A DNA stretch of 64,000 bases from an uncultured Bacteroidales bacterium. Lineage in GTDB: Bacteria; Bacteroidota; Bacteroidia; Bacteroidales; Paludibacteraceae. The position numbers and the translations under genes are program-made. The notes beneath the pieces are model-generated. The model had not been told where the DNA came from. It did no database searches and saw nothing but the letters and a program-made list of their open reading frames with translations. Location: NCBI GenBank assembly GCA_903911085.1, contig CAIWCC010000230.1:1-64000 (forward strand), read 5' to 3'. Below are positions 3,461-61,926 of the stretch, piece after piece; the first letter of the stretch is position 1; every line of letters begins with the position of its first letter.

Positions 3461-3525
3461 TAAAATTACTACTTGTATCTTTATAAAAAGCATATTTTTA
3501 TATCAAAAGTTGATACTTTATCGAC
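3461..3525 (-). promoter_or_regulatory. PUL operator-promoter module, copy A (upstream of 1013..3373)
   Basis: Minus-strand GTCGATAAAGTATCA-N6-GATATAAAAATATGC, then TAATTTTA exactly 42 nt after GTATCA. Confidence 0.75.
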
Positions 3526-3575
3526 ATAGTAACAACCTATATTTAAGGTTAGAACTTATAAACATCGAAGACTTT

Positions 3576-3642: not shown

Positions 3643-3683
3643 AGTGTCTCGGATACTCGACGTCTAAAAGTGTTTTTACAAAT
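3641..3683 (-). repeat. Repeated 3'-UTR element, copy 1
   Basis: Minus-strand TTTGTAAAAACACTTTTAGACGTCGAGTATCCGAGACACTA, about 40 nt nearly identical to 61742..61782 (+). Confidence 0.6.
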
Positions 3684-6948: not shown

Positions 6949-7013
6949 CAAATTTAGATAGTATTTGATTGCAAAAATGATATTTTAATATCTAATAATG
7001 ATACTTTTTCGAC
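6949..7013 (-). promoter_or_regulatory. PUL operator-promoter module, copy B (upstream of 3676..6921)
   Basis: Minus-strand GTCGAAAAAGTATCA-N6-GATATTAAAATATCA, TAAATTTG exactly 42 nt after GTATCA. Confidence 0.85.
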
Positions 7014-7046
7014 AAGGGTGATGGCTGGAGATGTACTACAATTAAA

Positions 7047-13984: not shown

Positions 13985-14049
13985 CAAAAATATATTTATC
14001 AATTCATTAATAATGATATTTTTATATCTAACTTTGATACTTAGTTTAC
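13985..14049 (-). promoter_or_regulatory. PUL operator-promoter module, copy E (upstream of 12486..13925)
   Basis: Minus-strand GTAAACTAAGTATCA-N6-GATATAAAAATATCA, TATTTTTG exactly 42 nt after GTATCA. Confidence 0.85.
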
Positions 14050-14153
14050 ATTCAAATAAATAACATATATTTCAGTTTCAATGAAGTAAATTGCTTCTAA
14101 AACTATTAAAAGGCAGATTGCTGTATTTTTTGAATGTTTTTTCATTATTAATT

Positions 14154-14197
14154 GTCGAAATAGTATCACTTAAGATACTAATAAATAGCTAATTTTG
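14154..14197 (+). promoter_or_regulatory. PUL operator-promoter module, copy F (proximal half-site only; upstream of 14229..15782)
   Basis: GTCGAAATAGTATCA, TAATTTTG 21 nt after GTATCA; distal half-site weak or absent. Confidence 0.7.
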
Positions 14198-14228
14198 CGC
14201 AATTCTGATTTTTAAATTTTTGTATAAC

Positions 14229-15782: not shown

Positions 15783-15812
15783 AAAATTTCGTATAAACAT
15801 TAGAATAATACA

Positions 15813-15877
15813 GTCGTAATTATCATACTAATAGATAGAATAGTATCATTTTCGGTATTTTAATTCAACTATTTTTG
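15813..15877 (+). promoter_or_regulatory. PUL operator-promoter module, copy G (upstream of 15953..19783)
   Basis: GTCGTAATTATCATA (distal, imperfect)-N6-GATAGAATAGTATCA, TATTTTTG 21 nt after the proximal GTATCA. Confidence 0.75.
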
Positions 15878-15952
15878 TGAAGTTAAAATGGAAGTGGTTT
15901 TTTTTAGTATTTTAACTCAGTTACTACATTCACCTTATAAATTCAAAATTAC

Positions 15953-18900
15953 ATGAAGAGATTAAAGCTCGCTCTCGGAATCCTTTTTTTTGTTTCTAGT
16001 TTCTCGGCAAATGCAGCTACTGTAACAGCATTTACCGAAAATTTTAACGGGACTTCGCTTCCATCCGGTTGGACACAAACCACTCAATACCTATTGGGAG
16101 TTTCCAATGGTGAATTAGTAATCAATGTCAATAAAACAAAGGGATGGCAGTCTTTTGTTTTTACACCAACTAACACCATCGATTTTTCGACAAATCCTTA
16201 TGTTGCGCTAAAAGTTAGAGCTACTCAGCCTGTTAGACTTATGGTTTATTTGGTAGATGCAGCTAACAATGTTGTAAAACAAGCCAATGTGCGCTATGCT
16301 GGCGGCAAATCTACCAATGTATTGTTGGATTTTACTTCCGCAGGAAGCGTTAATTTAAGTGCCGTAACTAAATTGTACATTGGTGTTAACGGCGAAGCAT
16401 TAACATGGAGCGGCAAAGTATATATTGATGAAATTAATTTGGCAGGTGCAGCGGTTAAAAAAGCAACGCTATCAAGTATCGAGGATAAAACTTATTATCA
16501 AGGTACTTCAGCAAATTCATTTCTTGTTTCGGATATTTCTAATGCCTCATCAATTGAATTGGTCGGCGCTGAATCACTTATTGGGAATACGATTATTTTG
16601 ACAGATTTATTTACTATAAATGGTGTAACAAGTGGTTTTTCTACTATTACTTTTAATGCAAAAGCAGGTGTAAGTGGCACGGCAGTTGCCAAAATAATTA
16701 CACAAGCAAATGCAGGATTTGTAAATGATACCGCATTATTTAATCTGACTGTTGAAGGCAATTTACCCCCAACCGCCACAGTGCCAGCAACGCTTGATAT
16801 AAAAACCGGCAATGCATTGGCATTTAGTATTACTAATATTTCAGATGGGAATAGTTCTGTAGATCAATCAATTACTTACACATTTACAAAAATTTCGGGC
16901 ACAAGTATAGGTTCCATTACAAGTACTTATGACAAACAGAAAGCAGCAATAAATATTACGGGGCAAGCCGTTTCAGCTGGTATTAGTACTTACAAATTGG
17001 TGATAAAAGATGATGGCGGCGGACTCGATTCGTTGGTTAAAATAGTAAATGTGGTTGCTTATGCTAATTATAACAATCCGCCCACCTGCGAAATTAAAAA
17101 CGAGAACGAAATGTTTATCAATGATGGAACCATTGAAATACCCATTATAAACTCGAAAGATGGAAACACCGGATCTCAAAGTCTTTCCTATCAGGTAACA
17201 AGTTTAAATACCGACATTATTAGTAACGCCACTATAGGATTTGTAAATGGAAATCCTATGGAGCCAAAAGTGGTCTGCACAGCTTTGGTTACTGGAAAGG
17301 CAACCCTTGAACTCACTATTTCCGACGATGATTTTGGTTTTGATAATGGTGTAAAATCTTCCACACAAAAATTTACGATATTGGTAAAACCCACACCAAC
17401 CTATGGATTTGATGTGAATATTAGTAATTTTGCAAACGATACTACTAATCAGCTTTATAAATTGGAGGCGACCACTTCACAAACATTTACAAGTACTGTA
17501 TTTGATGGTAGCCCTTGTTTAAAAATTGATTGTAGCAACAAAGGTCAATGGTCGGGTTTTTGGTATCGCAACCCCGAAATGGATATTTCGGCAAACCCAT
17601 TGCTCGAATATGAAATTTATTGTGTTGATAAAAGTATTGAAACACATGCTTATTTTTGGGATTCAAAGAATTTACGAAATACCGATGGAGCCCACGCACA
17701 GCGGAAAACAGTATCTGCTAATACTTGGACAAAAGTGCTGATGGATTTTAGAGGAGCTGGCATGATGGTAACTGGTTCGGGTGTTGCGCTTAATGCAAAT
17801 GCCATTGATAGTGTGCTGTTTAATTACAATGGTTCGTTTCCTTTTCCGACCGAAACCTTTACTGGTACAATTTATATTCGCTCGATAAAAGCAGGAAATG
17901 CGGTTACCAATGTTCCTTCACTCACACCAATAGCCACTATAAATAATCCAGGTAATGCAACATACTTTAAGAACGAGGGAGCTAAAAAAATCAGAATTAA
18001 TAATATTAGTTGTGGTGCTGGTTGTTCCGAAGTGCCCATTGTTTCGATTAAAACTAATTCCAACGCTGCGCTATTAACCGGAGTAAGTCTTTCGCCATTA
18101 ACGGCTGGAAGTGTAGATCTTAATTTTACCGTAGGTGCTACAACTGGAAAAACAAATATTACCTTGGAAGTAATGGCAACTGGTTCAACCACAACCACCA
18201 AAATGTTTTCGATTGAGGTGCTGAACAATGCTATTTCTACTACCACTTTTAGCATTGATACCATCGCAAAAAAGCAAGTTATTGCTGGACTTGGAGCCGC
18301 TTCGCCAAAAATAGATTTGATTAACCAATTTATGAGTACGGGTTCATCTGTAATTAGAATGTTTTTCCTTGGTGATGAAATTGAGCCAGTTAACGACAAT
18401 TGCTCTCCTTTTGCCATTGACCAAACTAAATTTCTTTCCAGTGGATTAAATGTGGATTATATAAAAGCTGCACATCTAGCCGGAATTAATGATTTTGTGG
18501 TCACAGTATTGAGTCCACCATCGTGGATGAAACAAAATTTGAGTGAAACCTACAACATGTCACTTGCACCTACATGGGCTGCAACCACCAATAAAGTGGA
18601 TCCCATTTACTACGATGAGTATGTAGAATTTATGGTTGGAATAGTTCAATTAGTAAAAGTAAGAACCGGCGTAGAATTGATGGGAATTTGTCCACAAAAT
18701 GAACCTGCATTTTGCCAACCTTATGGCTCTGCCATACTTGACCCTGTACACATGGCTACTGTTTGTGGAATGTTAGGTAAAAAGCTGAGCACCCTGGGCT
18801 ATAAAACCAAAGTAATAGCCGCCGAACAAGTTTTTGCACAGAATGTGAATGCTTTCACCGATGCTATTCAAGCAGATACAGATGCTAACAAATACACATC

Positions 18901-19783
18901 GGTAATTGGCATGCACTATCCAAAACTGGATGCCGTTGCTTACGCTTCGCAATATAACAATACTCAGGAAGGTGCTTATCCCAAAGAATATTGGGGAATG
19001 GAAATGAATGCAATTGGTAACGATTGGACAAAAGTTATGGCTGAAATGCAAATATTTGCACTTGGGTTGAACAATGGCGTTGGGCTATGGGCAATTTATG
19101 GCTGGAATGGTAATGCGCTGATGAACAATAGCCAAAATGCAGTTGGTAGCCAGTTGGCTATGGTGTATGGCAATGTACCCTCGAAACATTTTTATGCCGC
19201 AAAAAATGTGTACAAACACTTTAAACCAGGGTCGAAAATTGTAACAACTGCACTTAGCGTCGCAAATGCAAATGTAAGTATGGTGGGTAATTTAAACAAT
19301 AAAGATTCAGTGATTAATATTGTTTGGGTAAATATTGGAACAACGAATGTGGTAGGCACGTTGGCTTCATCTATACTCCCAAATAGTGGATCAAAAGCGT
19401 ATCGCACTTCCGAATTTGAGGATTACCAAATAGTTACACCAATCCTGGGCGATAAAATAATACTTCCAGCAAAAAGTGTAACCACATTGGCAATTCCATA
19501 TAATAAGAAATCGATATTACCAAGTGCTTTGCCTGCAACTCAGGCAGCTAATGAGGACGACTATAAGCTTTTTCCAAATCCAGCTTTGAACGAATTGTGG
19601 GTTTCATCAACTACTGATAAGGAATTTAATATTTCAATTATTGACCTGACTGGAAGAATATTAGTTACAAAATCAAAACTGAATGCCGGCGAAGCTATCA
19701 ATATCAGTATGCTGAAATCGGGCCTATACAATGTATTAATTCAATCGGACAAAACGGCTGTTAAAAAGTTGTTTGTCAAATAA
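15953..19783 (+). CDS. Large secreted GH30-like glycosidase with N-terminal CBM/cadherin-like domains and T9SS sorting domain
   Basis: QVIAGLGAASP..., SPPSWMKQN, CPQNEPAF and YWGMEMNAIG motifs; C-terminal LFPNPALNELWVSS...SGLYNVLIQSDKTAVKKLFVK. Confidence 0.7.
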   Translation: MKRLKLALGILFFVSSFSANAATVTAFTENFNGTSLPSGWTQTTQYLLGVSNGELVINVNKTKGWQSFVFTPTNTIDFSTNPYVALKVRATQPVRLMVYLVDAANNVVKQANVRYAGGKSTNVLLDFTSAGSVNLSAVTKLYIGVNGEALTWSGKVYIDEINLAGAAVKKATLSSIEDKTYYQGTSANSFLVSDISNASSIELVGAESLIGNTIILTDLFTINGVTSGFSTITFNAKAGVSGTAVAKIITQANAGFVNDTALFNLTVEGNLPPTATVPATLDIKTGNALAFSITNISDGNSSVDQSITYTFTKISGTSIGSITSTYDKQKAAINITGQAVSAGISTYKLVIKDDGGGLDSLVKIVNVVAYANYNNPPTCEIKNENEMFINDGTIEIPIINSKDGNTGSQSLSYQVTSLNTDIISNATIGFVNGNPMEPKVVCTALVTGKATLELTISDDDFGFDNGVKSSTQKFTILVKPTPTYGFDVNISNFANDTTNQLYKLEATTSQTFTSTVFDGSPCLKIDCSNKGQWSGFWYRNPEMDISANPLLEYEIYCVDKSIETHAYFWDSKNLRNTDGAHAQRKTVSANTWTKVLMDFRGAGMMVTGSGVALNANAIDSVLFNYNGSFPFPTETFTGTIYIRSIKAGNAVTNVPSLTPIATINNPGNATYFKNEGAKKIRINNISCGAGCSEVPIVSIKTNSNAALLTGVSLSPLTAGSVDLNFTVGATTGKTNITLEVMATGSTTTTKMFSIEVLNNAISTTTFSIDTIAKKQVIAGLGAASPKIDLINQFMSTGSSVIRMFFLGDEIEPVNDNCSPFAIDQTKFLSSGLNVDYIKAAHLAGINDFVVTVLSPPSWMKQNLSETYNMSLAPTWAATTNKVDPIYYDEYVEFMVGIVQLVKVRTGVELMGICPQNEPAFCQPYGSAILDPVHMATVCGMLGKKLSTLGYKTKVIAAEQVFAQNVNAFTDAIQADTDANKYTSVIGMHYPKLDAVAYASQYNNTQEGAYPKEYWGMEMNAIGNDWTKVMAEMQIFALGLNNGVGLWAIYGWNGNALMNNSQNAVGSQLAMVYGNVPSKHFYAAKNVYKHFKPGSKIVTTALSVANANVSMVGNLNNKDSVINIVWVNIGTTNVVGTLASSILPNSGSKAYRTSEFEDYQIVTPILGDKIILPAKSVTTLAIPYNKKSILPSALPATQAANEDDYKLFPNPALNELWVSSTTDKEFNISIIDLTGRILVTKSKLNAGEAINISMLKSGLYNVLIQSDKTAVKKLFVK

Positions 19784-19802
19784 TTATCAAGTTTAATTAT
19801 TG

Positions 19803-19842
19803 AAGGAGTTTGTTTTGTGAGTTCAGGACAAACTCCTTTTGA
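19803..19842 (+). terminator. Rho-independent terminator after 15953..19783
   Basis: aaggagtttgt / acaaactcctt perfect 11-bp stem, followed by tttt. Confidence 0.75.
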
Positions 19843-19855
19843 TTAAAAAAATATG

Positions 19856-19863
19856 TAACTTTG
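19856..19863 (+). promoter_or_regulatory. Bacteroidota -7 element TAACTTTG upstream of 19903..22299, without the locus operator
   Basis: TAnnTTTG match just after the terminator and 40 nt before the ATG; the position 27 nt upstream reads caaact, not RTATCA. Confidence 0.5.
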
Positions 19864-19902
19864 TAGTTGCTGATTTAAAAATCAGATAAAAATTTATTAA
19901 AC

Positions 19903-37945: not shown

Positions 37946-38190
37946 AAAGTTGATTTTATATTCGATGTTTAGTGGTTGTTTTAATGCTACTTTAAATGTA
38001 AGTTGTAAGAAATACGTCATTTATTGAAATTGACAATTTCTAATTATCGAACAGCTATTGTTCCAAATAATTTTATCTTTTTTATCGCAAAGATATATTT
38101 ATTTTAGATATAAGCCAAGTATGTGTAATTTTTGCATTATCTTTATATATTTGATATTCAGACTATAAGATAAATTTAAGATATTAAGGT

Positions 38191-38255
38191 GTCGAAATAG
38201 TATCAGTATTTGATAGATTAATATGATTTTTGTATTATAAAAATAAATACATTTG
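38191..38255 (+). promoter_or_regulatory. PUL operator-promoter module, copy I (upstream of GH116-AraC unit)
   Basis: GTCGAAATAGTATCA-N6-GATAGATTAATATGA, TACATTTG exactly 42 nt after GTATCA. Confidence 0.85.
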
Positions 38256-38328
38256 CACAATGAAATGAATTAGTAAGAAAAGTATTAGTTTTTTTTCTGA
38301 AGAATAATTATTGAATCAAATTAAGTCT

Positions 38329-40986
38329 ATGCAAATCAAATTCAAGTTTTCAAAATTAATGCTAGTTGCATTTTTATTTCTAAATATTCTTAGTTATTCT
38401 CAACAGAACAATGAACCAATTACGGAGACATATTTGTCCAGTTCGCGCGTTCGCAGTGGAATTGCTATGGGCGGCATTGGCACTGGTAGCATTGAATTAC
38501 GCAAGGATGGGAATTTTTACAATTGGACAATATTTAATAATTATCCACTGAGTTGCGGTCCAGCTTTTGAACTTCCGTCCATACCAAAAACTTCACTAGA
38601 TCAATCGCTACTGTTTTTTCTGGTACGTTATCAGGTGGAAGGACAAAAACCGAAGCTAAAACTGCTCCAACTCAATAATAGTTTGCAGGAAGGAGCTCAA
38701 GAAGGCATTATCTATTATTATCCGTGGATGACTGCCGTTGACAAAATTGAATACCAAGCGCGTTTTCCATTTACCAATATCACTTTTTCGGACGCAGAAA
38801 TGCCTTTCGATATTCAGTTGGAAGCTTTCTCGCCTTTTATACCTCACGATGTAAAAAACTCGTCGTTGCCCGGAGCTTATTTTAATTTTACGGTAAAATC
38901 GAAAACCGATAAAAAAGTTGAGGTAATGTTGCTCGGATCGCTCCGTAATTTGGTGGGTTACGATAATATTGAGAAGGCTTTTGAGTCGAGAATAATCAAT
39001 AAACAGGGCTATAAATTTTTTATTCAAAGCGTTTCCGGCCTCGATTCGTTAAGCACTAGTAATGGTCAAATGGGACTTGGAGTTATTGGAGGCAATGAGG
39101 TTTCGTACTATTTGGGATGGGAGCACAAACATCCTTATTACGAAAAATTATTGGTTGAAAATAAATTGGCAAATGTGGATGATACGCACAACCGAAACAC
39201 CAAAATGAAAGATGGAAAATTGGTCGGGCATTTTAGTGGTACTGGAAACGACCAACGCTGTTTTAGTTCCATAGCTGTTTCGCACCAATTGAATGGAAAA
39301 GCCGAATTTAAGGCTAGCTTTTTTATGAACTGGAATTTCCCTAATAAATACGGTGCAATAAGCTACAAAGAAGATAATTCGTTGGAAAAAAGGAAGGAAA
39401 GAGATTATAAAATCAAGCTAAAACCCACCAAAATTATTGGTCATTATTATCAAAATTATTTTTCAGGAATTGATTCAATAGCATCTTATTTCTCAGCTAA
39501 TCAGACCGATTTAACTGGTAGAAGTCACCAGTTTGTGGACGATATGTATTCGTCGTCGCTGGACCAGTATGTGTTGGATCAGGTCAATTCCAACCTCAAT
39601 ACTTTCGTAACCTCGTCCACCTTAACCAAATCCGGACAATTTGGCATTCGTGAAGGAATGACTTCTTCACAACCTTGGGGGCCAAACTCCACCTTGGATG
39701 TGGCACTGTATGGTTCGCCCATGATTGTTGCGCTTTATCCTGAATTACAAAAATCGATGATGCGCGAACACAGTCAGTTGCAAACGCCCGATGGTGAGGT
39801 AAATCACGGTTTGGGTTTTGACCTCGATTTTAACCAGAATGGAACTTGGGGTGTTTTCGACCGGGTGGATTTAGTTCCTAATTACATTCAAATGGTGCTG
39901 CGCGATTATATGTACACCAACGACAAAAGCTACATCAAAGAAATGTGGCCTACCGTAAAATTGGGCATTGAATACATCCTTACCAAGCGCGATAAAGATT
40001 GTGACCAAATGCCTGATATGACAGGGGTTATGTGTAGTTATGACAATTTCCCCATGTATGGGTTGGCATCTTATATTCAGTCGCAATGGATAGCAGCACT
40101 TACCATGGCATCCAAAGTGGCTACCGATTTGGGCGACAAAGAATTAGCCAAAAAATACCAAGCCATTGCCACCAAAGGTTCTCAATTGATGGAAAGCAAG
40201 ATTTGGAATGGTTCGTATTACAATCTATCCAACGATTATTTGGGCAAAAAAGGCATTGACAATGGCTGCCTTACCGACCAACTGATGGGACAATGGGTGG
40301 CGCATAATGCCGGAATGGGTTACATTTTCGATAAAGAACACGTGCAAAAATCGCTTCAATCTATTTTAGAAAAATCGTTTATCGACAATTCATTTTTGCG
40401 CAACTGCTCGTGGCCAGCTACGCCCGAACTTTTCCCCATTCATGCCTCCGATTTGTGGGTAGATCAGGCCAACACCCCCTGGACTGGTGTGGAACTTGCT
40501 TTTGCTTCTTTTTTGATTTACGAAAATCAGGTAACAGAAGGATTAAAAGTAATAAAAGGAGTGGAAGATCGCTACCGAAAGGCCGGACTTTATTTCGACC
40601 AGCAGGAGTTTGGTGGGCATTATTTCCGCCCCATGTCGGCTTGGTCTATTCTGAATGCTTTTTTGGGATATTCGGTCAATTGCGGAAAGTTCACTTTCAA
40701 TCCGAAATTAACGACCGAAAGTTTCAATCTGTTTTTTGCAACGCCTGAAGGCACTGCATTGTACAAAAAAACGGCAGCAAGTGTGAGCATTGTAATCAAA
40801 ACGGGTGAAATGAATTTTAATCAACTAAGGTTTCAAAATTCAGGCGTGTCCAATGCAAAAGCACTACTGTATTTAGACAATAAAATAGTAAAGAATGCCA
40901 AAATAAAATCTGAATTTGAAGGTTTTAACATAACACTACCCAACACTTTAAATATCAAAAAAGGTTCAGTTTTAGTTTTCAAGTAA
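38329..40986 (+). CDS. GH116 family (GBA2-type beta-glucosidase/beta-xylosidase-like)
   Basis: SGIAMGGIGTGSIELRKDGNFYNWTIFNNYP; HGLGFDLDFNQNGTWGVFDRVDLVPNYIQMVLRDY; DGCLTDQLMGQW-like segment. Confidence 0.9.
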   Translation: MQIKFKFSKLMLVAFLFLNILSYSQQNNEPITETYLSSSRVRSGIAMGGIGTGSIELRKDGNFYNWTIFNNYPLSCGPAFELPSIPKTSLDQSLLFFLVRYQVEGQKPKLKLLQLNNSLQEGAQEGIIYYYPWMTAVDKIEYQARFPFTNITFSDAEMPFDIQLEAFSPFIPHDVKNSSLPGAYFNFTVKSKTDKKVEVMLLGSLRNLVGYDNIEKAFESRIINKQGYKFFIQSVSGLDSLSTSNGQMGLGVIGGNEVSYYLGWEHKHPYYEKLLVENKLANVDDTHNRNTKMKDGKLVGHFSGTGNDQRCFSSIAVSHQLNGKAEFKASFFMNWNFPNKYGAISYKEDNSLEKRKERDYKIKLKPTKIIGHYYQNYFSGIDSIASYFSANQTDLTGRSHQFVDDMYSSSLDQYVLDQVNSNLNTFVTSSTLTKSGQFGIREGMTSSQPWGPNSTLDVALYGSPMIVALYPELQKSMMREHSQLQTPDGEVNHGLGFDLDFNQNGTWGVFDRVDLVPNYIQMVLRDYMYTNDKSYIKEMWPTVKLGIEYILTKRDKDCDQMPDMTGVMCSYDNFPMYGLASYIQSQWIAALTMASKVATDLGDKELAKKYQAIATKGSQLMESKIWNGSYYNLSNDYLGKKGIDNGCLTDQLMGQWVAHNAGMGYIFDKEHVQKSLQSILEKSFIDNSFLRNCSWPATPELFPIHASDLWVDQANTPWTGVELAFASFLIYENQVTEGLKVIKGVEDRYRKAGLYFDQQEFGGHYFRPMSAWSILNAFLGYSVNCGKFTFNPKLTTESFNLFFATPEGTALYKKTAASVSIVIKTGEMNFNQLRFQNSGVSNAKALLYLDNKIVKNAKIKSEFEGFNITLPNTLNIKKGSVLVFK

Positions 40987-41043
40987 AAGATTTTTTCAAA
41001 CTCTCAAACTCTCAAACTTTTTAAACTCTTTAAATTAAATAAT

Positions 41044-41934
41044 ATGGAACCAACGAATATTTTCAGAGAAATCACACCACTTTCAAATCACGATTGCTTT
41101 TTAATTATCGACCGAACAAAAAATAAGTTTAGTTATCCTGTTCACGTACATCCCGAAATAGAACTCAATTTTATAGAAAATGCAAAAGGTGCAAAGCGAA
41201 TAATGGGTGATTCGATAGAAGAAATTGATGATTTAGAATTGTGTTTAATTGGAAGTGAAAAACTCGAACATGGATGGGTTGATTTTGAATCAGAATCAGA
41301 AATTAGTCCCATTCATGAAATCACAATACAGTTTCACAGCGATTTGTTTATTGGTAGTTTACTGACCAAAAAGCAATTTCACTCTTTGGCAGTCATGTTT
41401 GAAAATGCAAAAAAAGGGTTGGTATTTTCGCAACCCGCCATTGGTCTTGTGAAAGAAAAGCTGAAGACATTGGCCAATAATAAAAATGATTTTTTCTCAG
41501 TATTAGATTTATTGTACATTTTATATGAATTATCAATTGACAACGATGCCAGAATTCTGTGTAACTCTACATTTGTTGATGAAATTGAAGTATCTGAGAG
41601 CAAACGGGTTCAGAAGTTGATAAACTATATTGAAGCTAATTATAAAAATGTATTGCGTTTGGGTGAAATTGCTACTAAGTTTGGTTTCTCGGAAGTTTCT
41701 TTTAGTCGTTTTATTAAGAAAAGAACTGGCAAAAACTTTGTAGAATATGTAAATGATTTGCGATTGGGTATGGCTTCTAGCAAGTTGGTCAATTCAAATA
41801 GTTCCATTGCTGAAATTTGCTATGAATGCGGATTTAACAACTTGTCCAATTTCAATAGGATTTTCAAAAACAGAAAAGGTTGTTCGCCAAAAGAATTTAG
41901 AGACAACTATACAAAAATTAGAAAGTTTATTTGA
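41044..41934 (+). CDS. AraC-family transcriptional regulator with N-terminal cupin-like sensor
   Basis: HVHPEIELNFIENAKGAKRIMGD cupin; double HTH LGEIATKFGFSEVSFSRFIKKRTGKNFVEYVNDLRL...IAEICYECGFNNLSNFNRIFKNRKGCSPKEFR. Confidence 0.93.
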   Translation: MEPTNIFREITPLSNHDCFLIIDRTKNKFSYPVHVHPEIELNFIENAKGAKRIMGDSIEEIDDLELCLIGSEKLEHGWVDFESESEISPIHEITIQFHSDLFIGSLLTKKQFHSLAVMFENAKKGLVFSQPAIGLVKEKLKTLANNKNDFFSVLDLLYILYELSIDNDARILCNSTFVDEIEVSESKRVQKLINYIEANYKNVLRLGEIATKFGFSEVSFSRFIKKRTGKNFVEYVNDLRLGMASSKLVNSNSSIAEICYECGFNNLSNFNRIFKNRKGCSPKEFRDNYTKIRKFI

Positions 41935-42053
41935 TTTTCCGATTTTAATAATTCATTTGTAAAATGAATTATACTAAAAATAGTCATACTATTTAGTCTT
42001 TAGAGTTCTTTTATCTAAAATAAAAACCTTCAATTTGAAAATAATGAACAAGT

Positions 42054-42118
42054 GTAGGAAAAGTATCATTTTTCGATAGAAAAATATCGTTAATGTAAGA
42101 CTCTATAAATTACTTTTG
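42054..42118 (+). promoter_or_regulatory. PUL operator-promoter module, copy J (upstream of susC)
   Basis: GTAGGAAAAGTATCA-N6-GATAGAAAAATATCG, TACTTTTG exactly 42 nt after GTATCA. Confidence 0.88.
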
Positions 42119-42239: not shown

Positions 42240-45200
42240 ATGAATAATCGCTTTCTTCACAGGGTAACAATAAGTTTATTTGTGTTTTTTGTATTAGCTG
42301 TGCAAACTCTTTTTGCTCAAAAAACCATTATTGGAACGGTTACCGAAGCTTCAACAAATGAATCTTTGATTGGCGTTAATGTAATGGTTAAAGGTAAAAA
42401 AGTAGGTACAATTACTGATTTGAATGGCAAATATAGTATTAACGCTTTACCTTCGGATCAACTAATTTTTTCTTATATTGGGCTTGAAAAGCAAGAAATT
42501 GTCGTTGGCAGTAAATCAACAATCAATATAAGTCTCCTTCCAAATGCAAATCAATTACAGGAGGTTGTAGCCATTGGTTACGGTACAGTAAAAAAATCGG
42601 ACTTAACAGGTTCGGTTGCAGTAGTTTCGGCAAAAGATTTAACAAAAATACCATCGGCAAGTGCTGCCATGGCACTTCAAGGACGTGCTACTGGAGTGTT
42701 GGTAACTCAAAGTGGAGAGCCTGGTGGTACAGCTACCATTCGAGTTCGTGGAGTTGGTTCTATCAGTAAATCAGCAGACCCGATTGTAATAGTTGATGGC
42801 GTCAGAGGTAGTATTGATGGACTTCAACCACAAGATATTGAAACAATGCAAGTATTGAAAGATGCTTCAGCTTCGGCTATTTATGGTGCTGATGGATCAA
42901 ATGGAGTTATTATTGTTACCACCAAACGTGGAAAATCAGGTAAAATTCAGGTAAACTTAAATTCGTATGCAAGTTATACATTATCTCCTAAAAGATACGA
43001 TGTAATGGATGCAGATGAATATGCAAATTTTTACAAACAAGTAAGCTTACCAAATCTGGCGTTCGAACAAGCATTTCGCCAAAGATATTATGGTGAAGGT
43101 TGGCAACAAGGAACAGACTGGCAAAATGAAATGTTTCACAATGCAGTATCTCAAAACCACAGTCTTTCATTAGCCGGTGGTGGCGAAAAAAGTAATTTCA
43201 ATGTGTCGTTGGGATACAATAATGAAGATGGAACTGTTTTAAAAAGTAATGCCGATAAGCTCAGTATTCGTGCAAATTCTGATTTTATATTAAGTAAATA
43301 TATTAAAGTAGGCGAAAATCTGAATGTTAGAAGAAGTAGTAGTCAAAAACCGATTACTATTCAAACAGATGTATGGGATTTGCGAGCGTCACCTTTGATG
43401 CGAATTGACAATTCAAATCTCAAAGGTGGATTTGAGTCTTACCAACAACTTTATTCCGATGCAGCTGATGGCTCCTTGATTTATGGTGTGCCAACCGGAT
43501 ATACTGGAGTTACCTATACTAATACAGTTGGCAATGACAAACCAAATCCTTTGGCAGCACCTTCACTTGGCAGCGACCAATCATTCAGTAATAATATTAG
43601 CGGTAGCGTTTACGTTCAGATAGATTTTACGAATTGGTTGATGTTTAAAAGCACACCTTCGCTCGAGTTAGTCAATAATAGATCAAGGTATTGGCTACCA
43701 GGTTTTGTTGGAAATCGCTCGGATGGAAATGCCCAACTAAACGAAAGTTTCACTCAAACTTCAGTACTTAATTTCGAAAATCAAATAGCATTCAAAAAAC
43801 TATTTAACAAAACCCATAATGTACAAGCTACTGCAGTAATGGAGAGTTATAATTCCAACTCAAATTCGATTGGTGGTAAAAGTAAAGGTTTCGATTTTGA
43901 AAGTTTAAATACATTGACAAACGGTGGTACAATTTCGGAAGACCTTACTGGTTCTGCTTCAATAGCTCGCCGTATTTCTTACCTCGGACGTTTAATGTAC
44001 GATTACAAATCCAAGTATTTCCTGACGGGTTCATATCGTTCGGATGGCGTAAGCAAATTTGCACCAAAGTTTCGTCGAGGCAATTTCTTGTCGGGTTCGC
44101 TAGCATGGAAAATTACCGAAGATTTTTTCAAAGATGTAAAACAATTGGATTTTCTCAAACTCCGTTTGGGTTGGGGTCAAACTGGCAATTCAAATATTGG
44201 AGGTGGTTTTCAGTATTTAGATCAAATTTCAGGCATCAACAATTTCAACCCAGTTTTTGGTGATAATCAGCAGATTGCGCGTGCCCAATATGCATTCTAC
44301 GGCATGGCTTCTGCCGAGGTACATTGGGAATCGTCCGAAATGTACAATGCTGGTTTAGACGCATCACTTTTTAATAGTCGATTACAATTAACTGCCGAAT
44401 ATTATTTGAAAATAAATAACGGGCTATTGGTACAAGTTCCAACTTCGGCAATTTTTGGTAGAATAGATGACGGTGGAAATCCTGCAAAACCATGGTACAA
44501 TATTGCTGATATTCAAAACAAAGGTATTGAACTGTCAGCTCAATGGAGAGACAAAGTTGGAGGTTTTGAATATGGTATTAGTTCAAATTTGACAACTATA
44601 AAAAACAGCGTTGATTACTTACCTGTACCCAATATTACGTCAACTAATAACCGAACAATCGTTGGCCATTCCATTGGTGCACTTTACGGATTTATTTCCG
44701 AAGGAATTGTTCAAAAGTCTGATTTTACGGGGGCACCTGTTAGCGGAGTTTATACAGCCGCATCGGGTTACAAATACAATACGCATAGTGGAAATATCCC
44801 ACAACCCGGCGATTTGCGATTCAAAGATTTGAATGGCGATGGTGATGTAACCGACTTAGACAAAACGATTATAGGTAAAACTATACCATCGTTGACATAC
44901 ACTTTTAGTTTTGATTGTTCATACAAAAATTTTGATCTCAATGTGTTTTTGTTCGGCGTAAGTGACTTTCAAATTTATAACCAACAGAGAGCAAGTTTAA
45001 TGAGTATGAATTCGCAAGATACACAAAATAACAAATTAACTGATTTTGCTCAAAATCATTGGACAGCAGAAAACCAATCGACCACACATCTTCGAGTTGA
45101 TGTGGCAAACACCAATTTGAATGACAGAATTTCCACATTCTGGATTGAAGACGGTTCATTCTTGCGTGTAAAAGACCTTCAAATTGGCTATAAACTACCA

Positions 45201-45395
45201 TCGAGCGGTACTAAATTATTAGGAATACAGAGTTTAAGAGTATATGTAAGTGCTGCCAATTTACTGAATATTAGTAAATATAAAGGACGTGATCCTGAGC
45301 CGTTTATATCGAGCAATCCTCTTAGCTCAGGTGTAGATAATGGTCAGTACGAAATTCCTCGTCAATTTACTGGCGGCTTGCAAATTTCATTTTAA
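42240..45395 (+). CDS. susC: SusC/RagA-type TonB-dependent outer-membrane receptor
   Basis: Carboxypeptidase-like N-domain (IIGTVTEASTNESLIGVNVMVKG), GYGTVKKSDLTGSV plug, ASAIYGADGSNGVIIVTTKRG. Confidence 0.96.
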   Translation: MNNRFLHRVTISLFVFFVLAVQTLFAQKTIIGTVTEASTNESLIGVNVMVKGKKVGTITDLNGKYSINALPSDQLIFSYIGLEKQEIVVGSKSTINISLLPNANQLQEVVAIGYGTVKKSDLTGSVAVVSAKDLTKIPSASAAMALQGRATGVLVTQSGEPGGTATIRVRGVGSISKSADPIVIVDGVRGSIDGLQPQDIETMQVLKDASASAIYGADGSNGVIIVTTKRGKSGKIQVNLNSYASYTLSPKRYDVMDADEYANFYKQVSLPNLAFEQAFRQRYYGEGWQQGTDWQNEMFHNAVSQNHSLSLAGGGEKSNFNVSLGYNNEDGTVLKSNADKLSIRANSDFILSKYIKVGENLNVRRSSSQKPITIQTDVWDLRASPLMRIDNSNLKGGFESYQQLYSDAADGSLIYGVPTGYTGVTYTNTVGNDKPNPLAAPSLGSDQSFSNNISGSVYVQIDFTNWLMFKSTPSLELVNNRSRYWLPGFVGNRSDGNAQLNESFTQTSVLNFENQIAFKKLFNKTHNVQATAVMESYNSNSNSIGGKSKGFDFESLNTLTNGGTISEDLTGSASIARRISYLGRLMYDYKSKYFLTGSYRSDGVSKFAPKFRRGNFLSGSLAWKITEDFFKDVKQLDFLKLRLGWGQTGNSNIGGGFQYLDQISGINNFNPVFGDNQQIARAQYAFYGMASAEVHWESSEMYNAGLDASLFNSRLQLTAEYYLKINNGLLVQVPTSAIFGRIDDGGNPAKPWYNIADIQNKGIELSAQWRDKVGGFEYGISSNLTTIKNSVDYLPVPNITSTNNRTIVGHSIGALYGFISEGIVQKSDFTGAPVSGVYTAASGYKYNTHSGNIPQPGDLRFKDLNGDGDVTDLDKTIIGKTIPSLTYTFSFDCSYKNFDLNVFLFGVSDFQIYNQQRASLMSMNSQDTQNNKLTDFAQNHWTAENQSTTHLRVDVANTNLNDRISTFWIEDGSFLRVKDLQIGYKLPSSGTKLLGIQSLRVYVSAANLLNISKYKGRDPEPFISSNPLSSGVDNGQYEIPRQFTGGLQISF

Positions 45396-45413
45396 TTTAT
45401 ATAAATACGAAAA

Positions 45414-47081
45414 TTGAAAACAATGAAAAAAAATATTTTAATACTTATTGCAATAATATCATTGAATAGCTGTTCCGATAACTGGCTTGAATTCAATAAT
45501 AAAAATGCCTTGGATGTAAGTTCATTTCTTACCACCGAGAATGATTTGAATCTGGCAGTAAATGCTGCATATACTCCACTTGCTCATAATGGAATGTTTG
45601 GTGAGAGATATTTCTATATCATCAATACATTGGATCCATATATTTGGTTTGAAAATCCAAAAGCAGGTTACGATATTTTTGCATTTACCCCCAACGATTT
45701 TAAAAATACATGGAGAGATTTATATTTAGGTGTTTACAGAACTTCTGATATTTTAGCTAATGCATATCGCGTAGAAGGTACAGTAACACCCGAAAAATTG
45801 AATGTTTATAAAGGACAGCTGAGAGCATTGCGAGGAATGTATTATTTTTATTTGGTAAGCTGGTTTAATAAACCCATTTTCTACGATGAAACAAGTTTGC
45901 CAACTAATCCGCTTGGTTCTTATACAAATAACGAACCCGATTTATTTTGGAATAAGTTAGAAGAAGACCTTCTTTTTGCTGCCAATAATTTACCTGCTAC
46001 ATGGGCTTCGTCCGAAACAGGTCGTATAACCAAAGGTGCTGCCAATGCACAACTTGGAAAGGCATTGCTTTACAAACACTACCATTATTATCTTCGTTTT
46101 GGCAAAGGTGGAACGCCCGAAGCAAAAGCCAATTTAGAGGCTGCAAAAGCGGCATTTAAACGTGTGATTAACAGTAACGATTATGAATTAATCAAACCTG
46201 TGATCAAAACGAAAGCGCATTATCAGGCGGCATTGTTATCAAATTTCTCATACTTAGACATTCCTGTTGGAGGCACTTCTTATAATTCAGAAAATAATAA
46301 AGAATCGGTTTGGGAAGTACAATACAATGACCAACCAAACAATAATTATTATTTACCAGCTTGGTTATGTGGTGGTAATCGGAATTATGAATACTTTGGA
46401 GTTCATAAATTTGGATACAAAAACCACGAAATTGACCCAACACTATGGTTTGAATTTGAGCAAGTATCTGGTCATCCTGGAGGTTATACAATTGATCCAC
46501 GTGCTAATGCCACATGTTTTTTGGAAGGTGATACCATGGATTGGCGACCAGAATCGGGCTACAACAATGGTTATGTAGGCAGTGTAAATGGTAAGGAAGT
46601 AGTGAAAAACTATAAATTATATGCTGGCACTCTTGCCCCTCCAAGTGTAACTATTGGATTAAAAAAATACAGTTATCCACAGTTTACTACCAACAGTGCC
46701 CCTTATTCAGCTCCGTTCAATGTACGTGTTATACGCTACGCCGATGTATTATTGATGTATGCCGAAGCATGTTATCAGGCTGACAATGACGCAGATGGAA
46801 GTGGATTAGCAGCACTCAATCTAGTGAGGGCACGTGTAGATATGCCAGCTGTAACAACACTTAACCCTACAGCCATTAAACATGAACGCACGGTAGAATT
46901 AGCTACTGAAGGACATCAGTATAATGATTTAATTCGCTGGTCATTCGATCCCAATTTTGGAATTGATTTAGGTACTATTTTCAGAGGATTCTTTATTTCG
47001 CCTAAAAACCTTTATTTCCCAATTCCACAAATAGATATTGATGCCAATAAAGGTAATTTGAAACAAAACCCAGGTTGGTAA
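45414..47081 (+). CDS. susD: SusD/RagB-family surface glycan-binding lipoprotein
   Basis: Lipobox LNSCSDNW; LRGMYYFYLVSWFNKPIFYD; YADVLLMYAEA; ERTVELATEGHQYNDLIRW. Confidence 0.96.
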   Translation: MKTMKKNILILIAIISLNSCSDNWLEFNNKNALDVSSFLTTENDLNLAVNAAYTPLAHNGMFGERYFYIINTLDPYIWFENPKAGYDIFAFTPNDFKNTWRDLYLGVYRTSDILANAYRVEGTVTPEKLNVYKGQLRALRGMYYFYLVSWFNKPIFYDETSLPTNPLGSYTNNEPDLFWNKLEEDLLFAANNLPATWASSETGRITKGAANAQLGKALLYKHYHYYLRFGKGGTPEAKANLEAAKAAFKRVINSNDYELIKPVIKTKAHYQAALLSNFSYLDIPVGGTSYNSENNKESVWEVQYNDQPNNNYYLPAWLCGGNRNYEYFGVHKFGYKNHEIDPTLWFEFEQVSGHPGGYTIDPRANATCFLEGDTMDWRPESGYNNGYVGSVNGKEVVKNYKLYAGTLAPPSVTIGLKKYSYPQFTTNSAPYSAPFNVRVIRYADVLLMYAEACYQADNDADGSGLAALNLVRARVDMPAVTTLNPTAIKHERTVELATEGHQYNDLIRWSFDPNFGIDLGTIFRGFFISPKNLYFPIPQIDIDANKGNLKQNPGW

Positions 47082-49779: not shown

Positions 49780-49813
49780 CATTAAATTATACATTAAAAT
49801 AAAGATTCTCGAA

Positions 49814-49878
49814 GTAGGAAAAGTATCATATTGCGACAGAATTATATTGTTTTATTGGCGATATTGTTTATATTTTTG
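49814..49878 (+). promoter_or_regulatory. PUL operator-promoter module, copy K (upstream of GH130)
   Basis: GTAGGAAAAGTATCA-N6-GACAGAATTATATTG, TATTTTTG exactly 42 nt after GTATCA. Confidence 0.82.
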
Positions 49879-49923: not shown

Positions 49924-51141
49924 ATGAGTGATTACAGCAAAAAAATGAAAGAATTGATAAAAAATCAAGAAGTTTTACTTTCAAAGGTAAATGAAAAAAA
50001 ACTATCAGGAAATGGTTTTTTTGATAGATATATTAACCCAATAATTACTGCAAATCATACTCCTTTAAATTGGCGTTATGACTTCAATCCCGAAACGAAT
50101 CCGTATTTAATGGAACGAATAGGGATAAACTCAACATTAAATGCCGGAGCTATAAAGTGGGATGACAATTATTTATTGGTAGTGCGCGTTGAAGGTGCAG
50201 ACCGTAAATCATTCTTTGCAATAGCCGAAAGTCACAACGGTGTTGATAATTTCCGTTTCAGAGAAGATCCATTGGTCATTCCCGAAACTGAAAATCCCGA
50301 CACCAATGTTTATGATATGCGATTAACGGCTCACGAAGATGGTTGGATTTACGGCATATTTTGTACCGAGCGCAAAGACCCAACTGCAGCAGATGGCGAT
50401 TTATCTTCGGCAGTGGCGGCGGCAGGTATCGTTCGCACAAAAAACATGAACAAGTGGGAAAGATTACCCGATTTAATTTCAAAGTCGCAACAAAGAAATG
50501 TAGTGCTTCACCCCGAATTTGTTGATGGAAAATACGCATTATACACTCGTCCGCAAGATGGATTTATCGAAACTGGAAAAGGTGGTGGCATTGGGTGGGC
50601 ATTAATCGACAATATAGAAAAAGCCGAGATTAAAACAGAAATAATCATTAATTTTCGCTATTATCACACCGTTAAAGAGCTTAAAAACGGCGAAGGTCCA
50701 CAACCAATTAAAACTACAATGGGCTGGTTGCATTTAGCGCACGGAGTTCGTAATTGCGCTGCAGGACTTCGTTATGTTTTATATCTCTATCTTACCGATT
50801 TACAAGACCCTACCATAGTGATTGCCGAACCTGCAGGGTATTTTATGGCACCTGTAGGCAAAGAGCGGGTTGGAGATGTTTCCAATGTTTTATTCTCCAA
50901 CGGGTGGATTGTGGATGAAGATGGAACGGTTTTTATTTATTATGCTTCGTCAGATACACGCATGCATGTAGCTACTACTACTATTGATAAATTGTTAGAC
51001 TACTGTACAAATAGTCCTGCCGATGGATATAGAACCTACAAGTCGGTACTTGCAATAAAAGAATTAGTGAAAAAGAACAAAACATATTTGAACGAAAAAG
51101 CAGAATTGCTAAATAATTATTCTAAGGTTGAATCTGTATAA
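49924..51141 (+). CDS. GH130 phosphorylase (mannosylglucose / beta-mannoside phosphorylase-like), cytoplasmic
   Basis: No signal peptide; [59 protein letters not shown]. Confidence 0.9.
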
Positions 51142-51288: not shown

Positions 51289-53079
51289 ATGAGAAATCCT
51301 CTACTTATTTTTTCAATTATTTTTTTCTTATCTTTTCCTTCAAATGCCCAATACATTGTAAAATCTGCGAATATTCTTACACCAGATTTGAACATTGAAT
51401 ATGTGCGCAGCAATGCCGAATTTTGGATAAAGTATGCATACGATCCTATTTTGGGAGGTTTTTTTTCGAGTGTAAATAGAAATGGAAGTTTGAAAGATGC
51501 CAATCAAAAGTCACTTATTTCGCAAACCCGTCATGGTTATGGTTTTACCAGAGCATTTATGCTTACAGGCGACGAAAAATACCTCACTTATGCCAAAAGT
51601 GCCTTGGACTTTTTGTGCAATAATGGTTGGGATAAAGTGAATGGTGGCTGGTATTGTTTTGCCAATAAAGATGGCTCGCTGGATAGTAGGGTTGGAGGAT
51701 GGAATGCCAATAAAACAAAATGGGGTTTTCAACAACAGTATGCTCTTGTTGGTATTATTGCCAATTACGAAGCAACACGCGATGCCACGGTTAAAGGTTT
51801 TATGGACAAGGGTATAAGCTCATTATACACTAATGTTTGGGATGCAAGAGTAGGAATGGAAGGCTACTATGAGGATGCAGCAATTAACTGGTCGACAAAA
51901 TCTGGAAAAGGTTTTACTTCCACGGTTGATGCCATTACTACCAATGCCGAACTCAGTTATTTGGTCACTCAAAAGCCTGAATACAAAGCCCGATTGATGG
52001 ATTTGGCAGGTGTAATTGTGAAGCGATTTATTCCCACAATGGATAATGCGAGTGTAAAAGTGCTTTATCCCGAAACTTTTAGTTCGGATTGGGTGCCAAC
52101 GTACAGTTCGGGTGGAAGTATAGGTCATTTTATTAAAACATCGTGGGTACTTGGCAGGGCGTATTTATGTGATACAACACGTAAAGAATTTAAAGATGCA
52201 GCCATTCGTATTTTAGACGAAACCTGGACTTATAAAAACGGAGTAAATTCCGTGTGGGATCATGTAAATGGTGGACCGTTCAACGAAATAAATGTAGCCA
52301 CAGGAGTGTTTAAAACCAACGGCGATAGTAAGGATTATTGGACATTGGAACAAGGTTTTACAAGCCCAATGATGAATTATTATATCACAAAAAATCCTAT
52401 CTATTTACAAATGGCAGATGAATCACTTGGTTTTTTTATGAAATATTTGGTGGATAAAGAAAATGGTGAAATTTTCATGCAAACCGACCCAAGTGGTTTA
52501 ATTGTTCGAAATGAAACCAAAGGTGATGACTTTAAAGCTTCGTATCACTCCATTGAACTGGGTTATTACGCCTATTTGTACAGCAATTTGTATTATTTAC
52601 ATCAACCAGCATCGCTATATTATAAATTTGCTGCAAGTACATCTGCCCAAAGTATTTCTTTAAGCCCTATTCCAATGGAAGATAATTTGTTGCTTATCAA
52701 ATCGGTAACGCTCAATGGGGCTGATTTTACAACCTTTGATGCAAAAACCCGTACTTTGAATATTGCTGCCAATCAGGGTGGAAAATTCAAAGTTACCTAC
52801 CAATCAATTCCAAAAACTCAAACCGCTTTACTTGATTTGGCTTCAGAACAAATCAGTGTTTATCCAAATCCAACAAAAGATAGGATTCAGATAGACAAAA
52901 CGAATGGAATTAAGCTAATTCAGATTGTTGATTTGGCGGGCAAAATTCTTTATTCTAAAATAAATAATGGTAGTAGTTCAACAAATATCGATTTGCAGGC
53001 ATTGAATTCTGGAATTTACTTTGTAGTTTTGTATAATAATGTGGGACAAAAAATTACTAAGAAAATTGTAAAGCTGTAA
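51289..53079 (+). CDS. Secreted AGE-family (N-acylglucosamine 2-epimerase / cellobiose 2-epimerase-like) protein with T9SS sorting domain
   Basis: Signal peptide; GGFFSSVNRNGSLKDANQKSLISQTRHGYGFTRAFMLTGDEKYL; C-terminal VYPNPTKDRIQID...SGIYFVVLYNNVGQKITKKIVKL. Confidence 0.8.
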   Translation: MRNPLLIFSIIFFLSFPSNAQYIVKSANILTPDLNIEYVRSNAEFWIKYAYDPILGGFFSSVNRNGSLKDANQKSLISQTRHGYGFTRAFMLTGDEKYLTYAKSALDFLCNNGWDKVNGGWYCFANKDGSLDSRVGGWNANKTKWGFQQQYALVGIIANYEATRDATVKGFMDKGISSLYTNVWDARVGMEGYYEDAAINWSTKSGKGFTSTVDAITTNAELSYLVTQKPEYKARLMDLAGVIVKRFIPTMDNASVKVLYPETFSSDWVPTYSSGGSIGHFIKTSWVLGRAYLCDTTRKEFKDAAIRILDETWTYKNGVNSVWDHVNGGPFNEINVATGVFKTNGDSKDYWTLEQGFTSPMMNYYITKNPIYLQMADESLGFFMKYLVDKENGEIFMQTDPSGLIVRNETKGDDFKASYHSIELGYYAYLYSNLYYLHQPASLYYKFAASTSAQSISLSPIPMEDNLLLIKSVTLNGADFTTFDAKTRTLNIAANQGGKFKVTYQSIPKTQTALLDLASEQISVYPNPTKDRIQIDKTNGIKLIQIVDLAGKILYSKINNGSSSTNIDLQALNSGIYFVVLYNNVGQKITKKIVKL

Positions 53080-57021: not shown

Positions 57022-57050
57022 TATGAATTTTGATTTCAATCTTTAAATTT

Positions 57051-59303
57051 ATGAACAAAAAATTGATTCTTTCTGTCTTCATACTTCTTACACTGAGTTT
57101 TACTTTTCAGGTGCAAAGTAAAAGCAAACCTGTTATAAAGAACACCTATATCCAAAAAAGTTTAGCTGAACGTGTCGATTCTGTGCTTGCCTTAATGACA
57201 CTGGATGAAAAAGTGGGTCAGTTGAATCAATATTCAAGCTCGTGGGCAACGGGTCCTGTGTCGCTGGATACCACTAAGTTACAAGATCTGAAAGATGGAA
57301 AAGTCGGATCTATGCTCAATGTGAGAGGTGTTGATAAAACAACGACTATTCAAAAAATGGCCATGGAATCTCGCTTGAAAATACCCTTGATTTTTGGGTT
57401 AGATGTTATTCACGGCTACAAAACCACTTTCCCAATTCCGTTGGCTGAGGCTTGCAGTTGGGATTTGGCGGCTATGGAGCAATCTGCTCATTTTGCAGCC
57501 ATCGAAGCCGCTGCATCGGGCATTCACTGGACATTTGCACCGATGGTTGACATTGCTCGCGACCCTCGTTGGGGACGTGTAATGGAAGGTGCCGGCGAGG
57601 ATACCTACTTGGGTTGTACCATTGCTAAAGCCCGTGTGAAAGGTTTTCAGGGCAATGGTTTGGGAAATACGGATGCAGTAATGGCTTGAGCCAAACATTT
57701 TGCGGCTTACGGCGCAGCCATTGGTGGTCGCGATTATAACTCAGTGGATATGAGTGAACGCACTTTGCTCGAAGTGTATTTGCCACCTTTCAAAGCCGCT
57801 TTAGATGCTGGAGCTGCTACATTTATGAATAGTTTTAACGATATAAATGGTGTGCCCGCTACAGGAAATGCATATTTGCAACGTAATATTTTAAAAGGCA
57901 AATGGGGTTTCAAAGGTTTTGTGGTGAGCGACTGGGGTTCGATTGGTGAAATTGAGAAACACGGTTTTGCCAAAAATTCCAAAGAATCTGCTTTTATTGC
58001 CATAAATGCAGGGAGCGATATGGACATGGAAAGTCGTGCTTATAAAAAAAACTTAGCTGAATTGGTGAAACAAGGCAAGGTGTCTTTAACCATTGTGGAC
58101 GAAGCTGTAAAACGTATTTTGCTAAAAAAGTTTGAATTAGGATTATTCGATAATCCTTTCAAATTTTGCGATTTGAAACGTGAAAAACAAGCAATGGAAA
58201 ATCCTCAACACCGAATTATTGCCAAAGAAATGGCTCAAAAAAGTATTGTTCTGTTGAAAAATCAAAATAATATTTTGCCGCTCAATAAAAATCAAAAAAT
58301 TGCACTGATAGGCCCTTTGGCTAAATCGGAAAAAGATATGCTGGGATTTTGGAATGTAGAATGGCCAGATAATAGCGATGTGGTTTCGCAATACGAAGGG
58401 TTGGAACTTAAAATTGGTAAAAATAATTTGTTGTACGCCAAAGGGTGCGAAGTGAATGACTCGTCGGAAACTGGTTTTGCCGAAGCCATAGCCATTGCCA
58501 AACAAGCCGATGTGGTGATTTTGAGCGTGGGCGAGGCAAGAGACATGAGTGGCGAAGCGCACAGTAGAACCAATATTCATTTGCCGGGCGTGCAAGAAAA
58601 CCTGATTAAAGCCATTGCAGCTACCGGAAAGCCGATAGTAGTGTTGATAAATGCGGGTCGCCCGTTGGTATTTAACTGGACTGCCGACAATATTCCAGCC
58701 ATCCTTTACACTTGGTGGTTGGGTAGCGAAGCTGGTAATGCGATTGCCGACGTGCTCTATGGCGATTATAATCCGTCGGGTAAACTGACCATGACCTTCC
58801 CAAGAAATGAAGGTCAAATTCCACTGTATTATAACCATTTCAATACAGGTCGACCTCGATATAATGATATTGACAATTATGTAACTGGTTACAGAGATTC
58901 GCCTTCAACTCCAAAATTTTCGTTTGGATATGGATTGAGCTATACCAGTTTTGAGTATTCCGATTTGAAATTGAGCGCAAAACAAATGAAGGCTGATGGA
59001 ACAATTGATATTTCGTTTACGCTTAAAAATACTGGCAAAGTAAAAGGTGAAGAAGTCGTTCAGCTTTATTTAAGAGACGATGTGGCTTCGCTTATTCGCC
59101 CTATTAAAGAACTGAAAGGCTTTGAAAAAGTAATGCTCCAAGCTGGCGAAAGTAAGGAAATTCACTTCACCATTGACAAAGAAAAGCTTTCGTTTTTCAA
59201 TAATAAATTAGACTGGACTGTCGAATCTGGCACGTTTCAAATCATGATTGGTGCATCGTCGGAAGACATCAAACTAAAAAGCTCAATTGAACTGATCGAC
59301 TAA
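57051..59303 (+). pseudogene. GH3 family beta-glycosidase (BglX-like), interrupted by one in-frame TGA at 57687..57689
   Basis: Frame is the same on both sides: ...GLGNTDAVMA-TGA-AKHFAAYGAAIGGRDYNSVDMSERTLLEVYLPPFKAALDAG...; catalytic VVSDWGSIGEI present. Confidence 0.85.
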
Positions 59304-61808: not shown

Positions 61809-61861
61809 AGCAAAAAAAAACGTTCAAAACGTCGTAGACGTTTTGAACGTTTTTTTTTGCT
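61809..61861. terminator. Perfect 25-bp hairpin, bidirectional terminator-like
   Basis: AGC-A9-CGTTCAAAACGTC / GTA / GACGTTTTGAACG-T9-GCT. Confidence 0.9.
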
Positions 61862-61926
61862 GTCGAAAAAGTATCATTCTTTGATATAAAAACAGAAGTT
61901 TTTTGAATTTATTCCCTCTAATTTTG
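61862..61926 (+). promoter_or_regulatory. PUL operator-promoter module, copy L (upstream of 62119..)
   Basis: GTCGAAAAAGTATCA-N6-GATATAAAAACAGAA, TAATTTTG exactly 42 nt after GTATCA. Confidence 0.82.

Follow-up and report, generated by a model that had tools for sequence, protein, structure and literature searches.

The AraC-family gene at positions 41044-41934 of the 64,000-nucleotide stretch of DNA analysed here (the window) very probably encodes a one-component activator of the AraC/XylS type that is dedicated to the surrounding polysaccharide utilisation locus (PUL) and acts through nine promoters, including that of its own gene. In the mechanism we propose, a dimer of the protein would occupy, on one face of the DNA, the two tandem copies of a 21-bp direct repeat and, with a sugar effector bound by its cupin domain, would recruit sigma-A polymerase by class II activation. 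Nine PUL promoters would thereby be switched on, among them the one serving the GH116 gene and the regulator, with positive feedback as the consequence. The computed basis of this proposal consists of the domain anatomy of the protein, the operator, its fixed phase relative to the promoter, its confinement to the locus, its co-occurrence with AraC orthologs, and the lack of a -7 box belonging to the regulator gene itself.

The window begins at base 1 of its contig (G000:C230), which ends at position 67842 (67.8 kb), and the genome searched comprises 6.25 Mb. The enzymes encoded include three GH28 proteins as identified by Pfam, one of them closer to RHGA, together with GH2, GH3, GH78, GH94, GH115, GH116, GH130 and a GH140-like apiosidase, accompanied by SusC/SusD, two sulfatases, an MFS transporter and several proteins with type IX sorting tails. 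Pfam detected no GH26 or GH5 in the window PUL, although GH130 is present; the GH26/GH5/GH130 neighbourhood of a beta-mannan PUL, which surrounds orthologs of the regulator (as in genome G001), is not that of the window AraC. The genes around the regulator and the GH130 gene are arranged as follows:

38329-40986, + strand: GH116-type glycosidase, ATG at 38329 (TTG at 38311 in the ORF list), first gene of the proposed GH116-AraC operon
40987-41043, + strand: GH116-AraC gap of 57 nt, with neither a terminator nor a TAnnTTTG box
41044-41934, + strand: AraC regulator, with a predicted cupin-like sensor (residues ~19-97), linker/dimerisation helices and a double HTH (~187-293)
42240-47081, + strand: susC/susD pair, 3' of the operator at 42062; SusC start at 42240
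49924-51141, + strand: GH130, best solved relative 3was, a 4-O-beta-D-mannosyl-D-glucose phosphorylase; linked to AraC orthologs

Elsewhere in the window, an in-frame stop divides the GH3 gene into two ORFs in the same frame (57030-57689 and 57744-59303, + strand); the gene is intact in relatives (e.g. G209, L160; 83% identical), and the window copy is either a pseudogene or an assembly error. At the contig edge, short ORFs and a broken frame (239-1012, - strand) resemble by eye the remnant of an IS3-type transposase OrfA, the ORFs at 239-544 and 541-774 having no Pfam match. The gene at 51289-53079 (+ strand) encodes a GlcNAc-2-epimerase-like (alpha/alpha)6-barrel that ends in a type IX secretion tail and shares 61-64% identity with its counterparts in sister PULs; the epimerase fold is normally cytosolic, so this secreted relative is possibly a hydrolase or lyase.

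The regulator ORF (+ strand) is a complete AraC-family gene with an ATG start and a product of 296 aa. Its double-HTH region is recognized by Pfam (HTH_18, E=1.2e-21; HTH_AraC, E=1e-14), and the N-terminal half gave no match in the Pfam scan. In an AlphaFold model built with 31 relatives (pLDDT 83.6), residues 19-97 are predicted to form the strands of a beta-barrel, followed by helices and then by the double HTH. Foldseek matched the modelled barrel to the sensor domains of RhaR (5u93), AraC (2arc) and BgaR (6nwh), and the modelled DNA-binding part to MarA, the AraC DBD and AdpA. The protein has the C-terminal double helix-turn-helix of the AraC/XylS family and, as judged from the AlphaFold and Foldseek results, its N-terminal effector and dimerisation cupin barrel as well; the label 'cupin-AraC', assigned earlier in a reading of the DNA by itself (the sequence-only reading), is thus fair. 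Five residues, P32, H34, H36, E40 and H76, are invariant across the 31-sequence alignment and are candidate ligand or metal residues.

HTCS proteins, in which a sensor, a histidine kinase and a receiver are fused to an AraC HTH, run to ~1300-1400 aa; the window protein, at 296 aa and with the HTH domain alone by Pfam, does not belong to this class. A genome-wide search for AraC-type HTH proteins placed no second one on the 67.8-kb contig, and Pfam scans of the main window ORFs revealed no HTCS, ECF sigma factor or other regulator, which bears out the earlier description of this protein as the only transcription factor in the window.

Comparison of the intergenic regions by hand yielded the operator TGTCGAAAAAGTATCATTNTTNGATATAAAAATATCATT, a 21-bp direct repeat (…AAAAGTATCATT…N…AAAATATCATT) found before nine promoters. 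Copies had previously been proposed before GH116 and susC, and both are present (cores at 38199 and 42062):

3485-3526, - strand: operator before gene 1013-3373; core 3517, -7 box one mismatch off the consensus
6973-7014, - strand: operator before gene 3676-6921; core 7005
14009-14050, - strand: operator before the GH28 gene 12486-13925; core 14041
14132-14173, + strand: operator before the GH28/RHGA gene 14220-15782; first core 14141, with only the proximal half-site strong (AGTATCA at 14162)
15812-15853, + strand: operator before gene 15953-19783; strong proximal AGTATCA at 15842, weaker distal TTATCA at 15821
38190-38231, + strand: operator before GH116-AraC; distal core 38199, -7 box ends at 38255
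42053-42094, + strand: operator before susC; distal core 42062, -7 box ends at 42118
49813-49854, + strand: operator before GH130; core 49822, -7 box ends at 49878
61861-61902, + strand: operator before the 1664-aa ORF (start at contig position 62119); core 61870, -7 box ends at 61926

The self-match of the operator peaks at a shift of 21 bp (0.50, against 0.43 for the next best shift and ~0.30 for most others). Exact matches to AGTATCA-N6-GATA-N4-AATA number five in 6.25 Mb, all five inside the window, and a 39-position model trained on seven window copies recovers, at E<=0.01, those seven and no further copy genome-wide. No strong copy was detected outside this locus across the 6.25-Mb genome, and the surroundings of an AraC paralog on contig C11 (41% identity) hold no operator except a weak match within an ORF. 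Since the locus contains every strong copy in the genome, we reject a genome-wide role: the 'master regulator' of the sequence-only reading is better described as a local regulator.

The position of the operator relative to the promoter is nearly invariant. The Bacteroidota -7 box has the consensus TAnnTTTG (PMC7366714), and, with the A of the distal AGTATCA taken as nt 1, a perfect box ends at nt 57 in eight of the nine copies, with one mismatch in the ninth. For the copies at 14162 and 15842, the strong core lies 36 nt from the end of the box; as 36 = 57-21, these cores are the proximal half-sites, and their interpretation as degenerate modules at a wrong promoter distance was rejected. The two strands of the window carry 80 TAnnTTTG boxes. 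In eight of these, a half-site core matching at 7/8 or better occupies the position set by the phase, and these eight are the boxes before genes to which operator copies had already been assigned. A perfect TAnnTTTG without an operator precedes gene 19903 (in 19784-19902, + strand) and gene 38020 (- strand), and the corresponding parts of the PUL may lie outside AraC control.

With the box set at -12 to -5 (PMC9723704), the half-sites fall at ~-70/-50 and ~-49/-29. The proximal half-site therefore overlies the -33 region, in which the main sigma factor otherwise recognises its upstream element. Class II activators of the AraC family usually have a half-site next to the -33 region, and the arrangement seen here is as expected for class II activation by an AraC-type dimer. 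The same overlap could, in principle, serve the opposite end: a bound apo-protein covering the -33 region could also block polymerase, and as relatives of AraC are capable of both modes, the regulator might bind the module but mainly repress in the absence of sugar, or act both ways like E. coli AraC. We consider this unlikely given the activator geometry, and given the positive action of the nearest functional precedents, CgrA (PMC5698469) and RhaR (PMC3878776).

The assignment of the operator to the AraC protein was explored in 48 genomes of the genus, with a cut-off of at least 60% identity for AraC orthologs. Matches to the operator model occur in 12 of the 19 genomes that encode such an ortholog and in 4 of the 29 that do not (Fisher p=6e-4). 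Of 34 matches in the AraC-bearing genomes, 19 lie within ~35 kb of the AraC gene; matches inside one locus are not independent, and the p-value for co-location overstates the case. Among the four matching genomes without such an ortholog, G178 and G156 have matches that lie within ORFs, lack a phase-locked -7 box and were discarded as chance. The remaining two, G186 (L173, L174) and G207 (L175), which are 82% and 85% complete, have phase-locked operators with no detected AraC ortholog.

The phase is retained in two types of gene cluster. In the related PUL of G174, G188, G209 and G211, the operator stands at an offset of 57-58 before homologs of GH116, SusC and GH130, and in beta-mannan-type clusters of G001, G136, G094 and G204 it stands at the same offset before SusC; the G001 cluster is a mannan PUL by Pfam content (GH26, GH5, GH27, GH130, GH94, epimerase, SASA esterase). 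The genus AraC orthologs associated with a window-type operator at the 57-nt phase are 60-75% identical to the window protein. Relatives at 48-54% identity are accompanied by a diverged operator, AGTATCA-N6-GATAA-N3-ATACTTGA, still phased at 57-58 nt, and a relative at 43% identity (L217) has a diverged copy, in the same phase, just downstream of its AraC gene. A regular expression combining core and phase matched 33 times in 1.84 Mb of fetched sequence and 0 times in the same sequence reversed; this control, together with the phase and the confinement of exact and model matches, rules out a chance repeat as the origin of the operator. Several AraC orthologs (e.g. L077, L082, L085) have no operator within the stretches fetched. 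An early impression that orthologs lacked operators was abandoned, as the 10-kb flanks used were too short and the starts of the mannan operons carry operators. In a tree of the regulators, the AraCs of the window PUL type group apart from, and beside, those of the mannan type, within a wider group that is poorly supported. Two AraC genes duplicated in tandem, with 65% and 63% identity to the window protein, occur at the end of a mannan-type cluster (G148:C1:277833-279796, L079).

It is this tracking of AraC orthologs between species at fixed phase, and not the repeat spacing, that argues for the AraC-operator pairing and makes the pairing proposed in the sequence-only reading probable. That reading had taken a spacing of about 21 bp as a match to AraC; the repeat is real, but such a spacing does not single out a one-component AraC, as the operators of HTCS also average 21 bp (PMC3878776). 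An HTCS encoded elsewhere, sharing the same double-HTH domain and direct-repeat preference (PMC3878776), could accordingly be the protein that binds the operator, leaving the local AraC with another target or a modulating role. Many HTCS-sized proteins with an AraC-type HTH are encoded elsewhere in the genome; a Muricauda mannan PUL holds both an AraC and an HTCS (PMC9860051); in G136 an HTCS adjoins the operator-bearing susC (L115: 12623-, 15278-19531+), where dual AraC/HTCS control of the mannan PUL is possible; and, with the contig ending 0 bp before and ~3.8 kb after the window, a regulator gene could lie just beyond. Against this, the operator follows the AraC orthologs not only between species but between two PUL types, no HTCS is found on the 67.8-kb contig, and no HTCS-sized ORF is present in the stretches fetched around G174:C7, G209:C30 and the G001 mannan PUL, the lone candidate of that size in the last (1265 aa) being DNA polymerase III alpha. 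Control by a distant HTCS is quite improbable on these grounds, and the local AraC remains the preferred partner of the operator.

The regulator gene itself appears to belong to the regulon. As noted previously, it starts 57 nt after the GH116 gene (GH116 stop at 40986, AraC start at 41044). The intervening gap contains no terminator, and a TAnnTTTG box is absent from the 320 nt that precede AraC. The TAnnTTTG scan thus offers no separate araC promoter, and a sigma-70 scan was uninformative (9 found versus 8.1 expected). Since neither a terminator nor a box of its own is present, araC is most likely transcribed from the operator-bearing GH116 promoter, and the two genes are likely co-transcribed. 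The adjacency is retained in G174, with a gap of 42 nt, and in the mannan clusters AraC lies downstream in a codirectional run of genes whose susC promoter bears the operator. Judged by this architecture, positive feedback of AraC on its own gene is likely, and the autoregulatory layout suggested earlier gains support from the two features on which it depends, an araC gene without its own sigma-A box and a GH116 promoter with the operator.

GH130 is linked to this AraC more often than any other enzyme, frequently within 3 kb, and the linkage extends to other families of the class; identity among the GH130 proteins is 72-77% for both PUL types across the genus and 62-69% for some other families of the class. 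Because the recurrent linked enzyme is a GH130 mannosylglucose phosphorylase, we propose a beta-mannosyl disaccharide such as Man-beta-1,4-Glc as the inducer, a proposal about evenly balanced with some other product of the polymer. The GH28, GH78, GH115, GH140-like and sulfatase enzymes of the window point to a complex polymer, and the window-type AraCs, forming a group of their own, may have changed ligand; another unit released by the PUL, for instance a rhamnose-, GalA- or GlcA-containing oligosaccharide, is accordingly only slightly short of an even chance. What speaks for the mannosyl signal instead is that the GH130, at 72-77% identity, is common to the window PUL type and to mannan PULs with AraCs at 60-66% identity, and that its linkage holds in other families of the class. 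If so, one AraC clade and its phase-locked operator might constitute a portable module of beta-mannan PULs and an unrelated complex PUL (pectin-like, sulfated, glucuronic-acid-containing), joined by a shared cytosolic signal, the Man-beta-1,4-Glc or mannobiose consumed by GH130. We advance this tentatively, as somewhat doubtful; were it true, a minor mannosyl-glucose unit of the polymer, rather than its dominant sugars, would induce the PUL. A literature search found no description of a mannobiose-responsive AraC in Bacteroidota.

E. coli AraC offers a parallel in operator geometry: it has a cupin sensor, and at araI1-I2 its half-sites are arranged in tandem with a spacing of 21 bp, the proximal half-site lying at the -35 element. 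The window system resembles it in its 21-bp tandem half-sites, in the placement of the proximal one at the upstream element of the promoter and in its predicted cupin sensor, and differs in that its promoters are of the Bacteroidota sigma-A type (-7 TAnnTTTG) and there is no evidence of DNA looping here. The Bacteroides HTCS likewise combine an AraC-type double HTH with direct-repeat operators in the control of PULs (PMC3878776), but they are inner-membrane sensor kinase fusions; the window protein, by contrast, consists of 296 aa, carries a cupin-like domain and has neither kinase nor receiver. The same HTH fold and repeat spacing are thus coupled here to a small cupin sensor in the cytosol, an arrangement that suggests a transported disaccharide, and not a periplasmic oligosaccharide, as the signal.

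Within the Bacteroidota, RhaR (BT3768) of B. thetaiotaomicron is an AraC-family, sugar-responsive, positive regulator (PMC3878776, its refs 39, 40) of a single rhamnose operon, whereas nine promoters, including that of SusC/D, are predicted for the window AraC. CgrA (ZGAL_3159), the AraC-family regulator of the Zobellia galactanivorans carrageenan regulon, is likewise a one-component AraC within a polysaccharide locus; according to the accessible text of PMC5698469, its deletion impairs growth on the substrate, from which a positive action follows, its substrate is a different one, and no operator is described in that text. The beta-mannan PUL of Muricauda sp. MAR_2010_75 expresses the AraC-type FG28_RS02325, and its GH26/GH27/GH130 content is the neighbourhood of the genus orthologs studied here, but that PUL also has an HTCS, and the accessible part of PMC9860051 gives no operator for FG28_RS02325. 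The 'distinctive wiring' of the sequence-only reading is less distinctive in the light of CgrA (PMC5698469) and the Muricauda AraC (PMC9860051). AraC activators of Bacteroidota glycan genes are already known from CgrA, RhaR and the Muricauda protein; what is new is the operator, its phase-locking and the regulon, in a system that is not of a new kind but whose predicted operator is unusually well defined. For most PUL regulators of environmental Bacteroidota no operator is known. The exact geometry described here, a 21-bp repeat and a -7 box that ends at nt 57, leads to a predicted regulon of nine promoters, allows its members to be recognised even in an assembly that breaks up the locus, and can be tested directly by binding.
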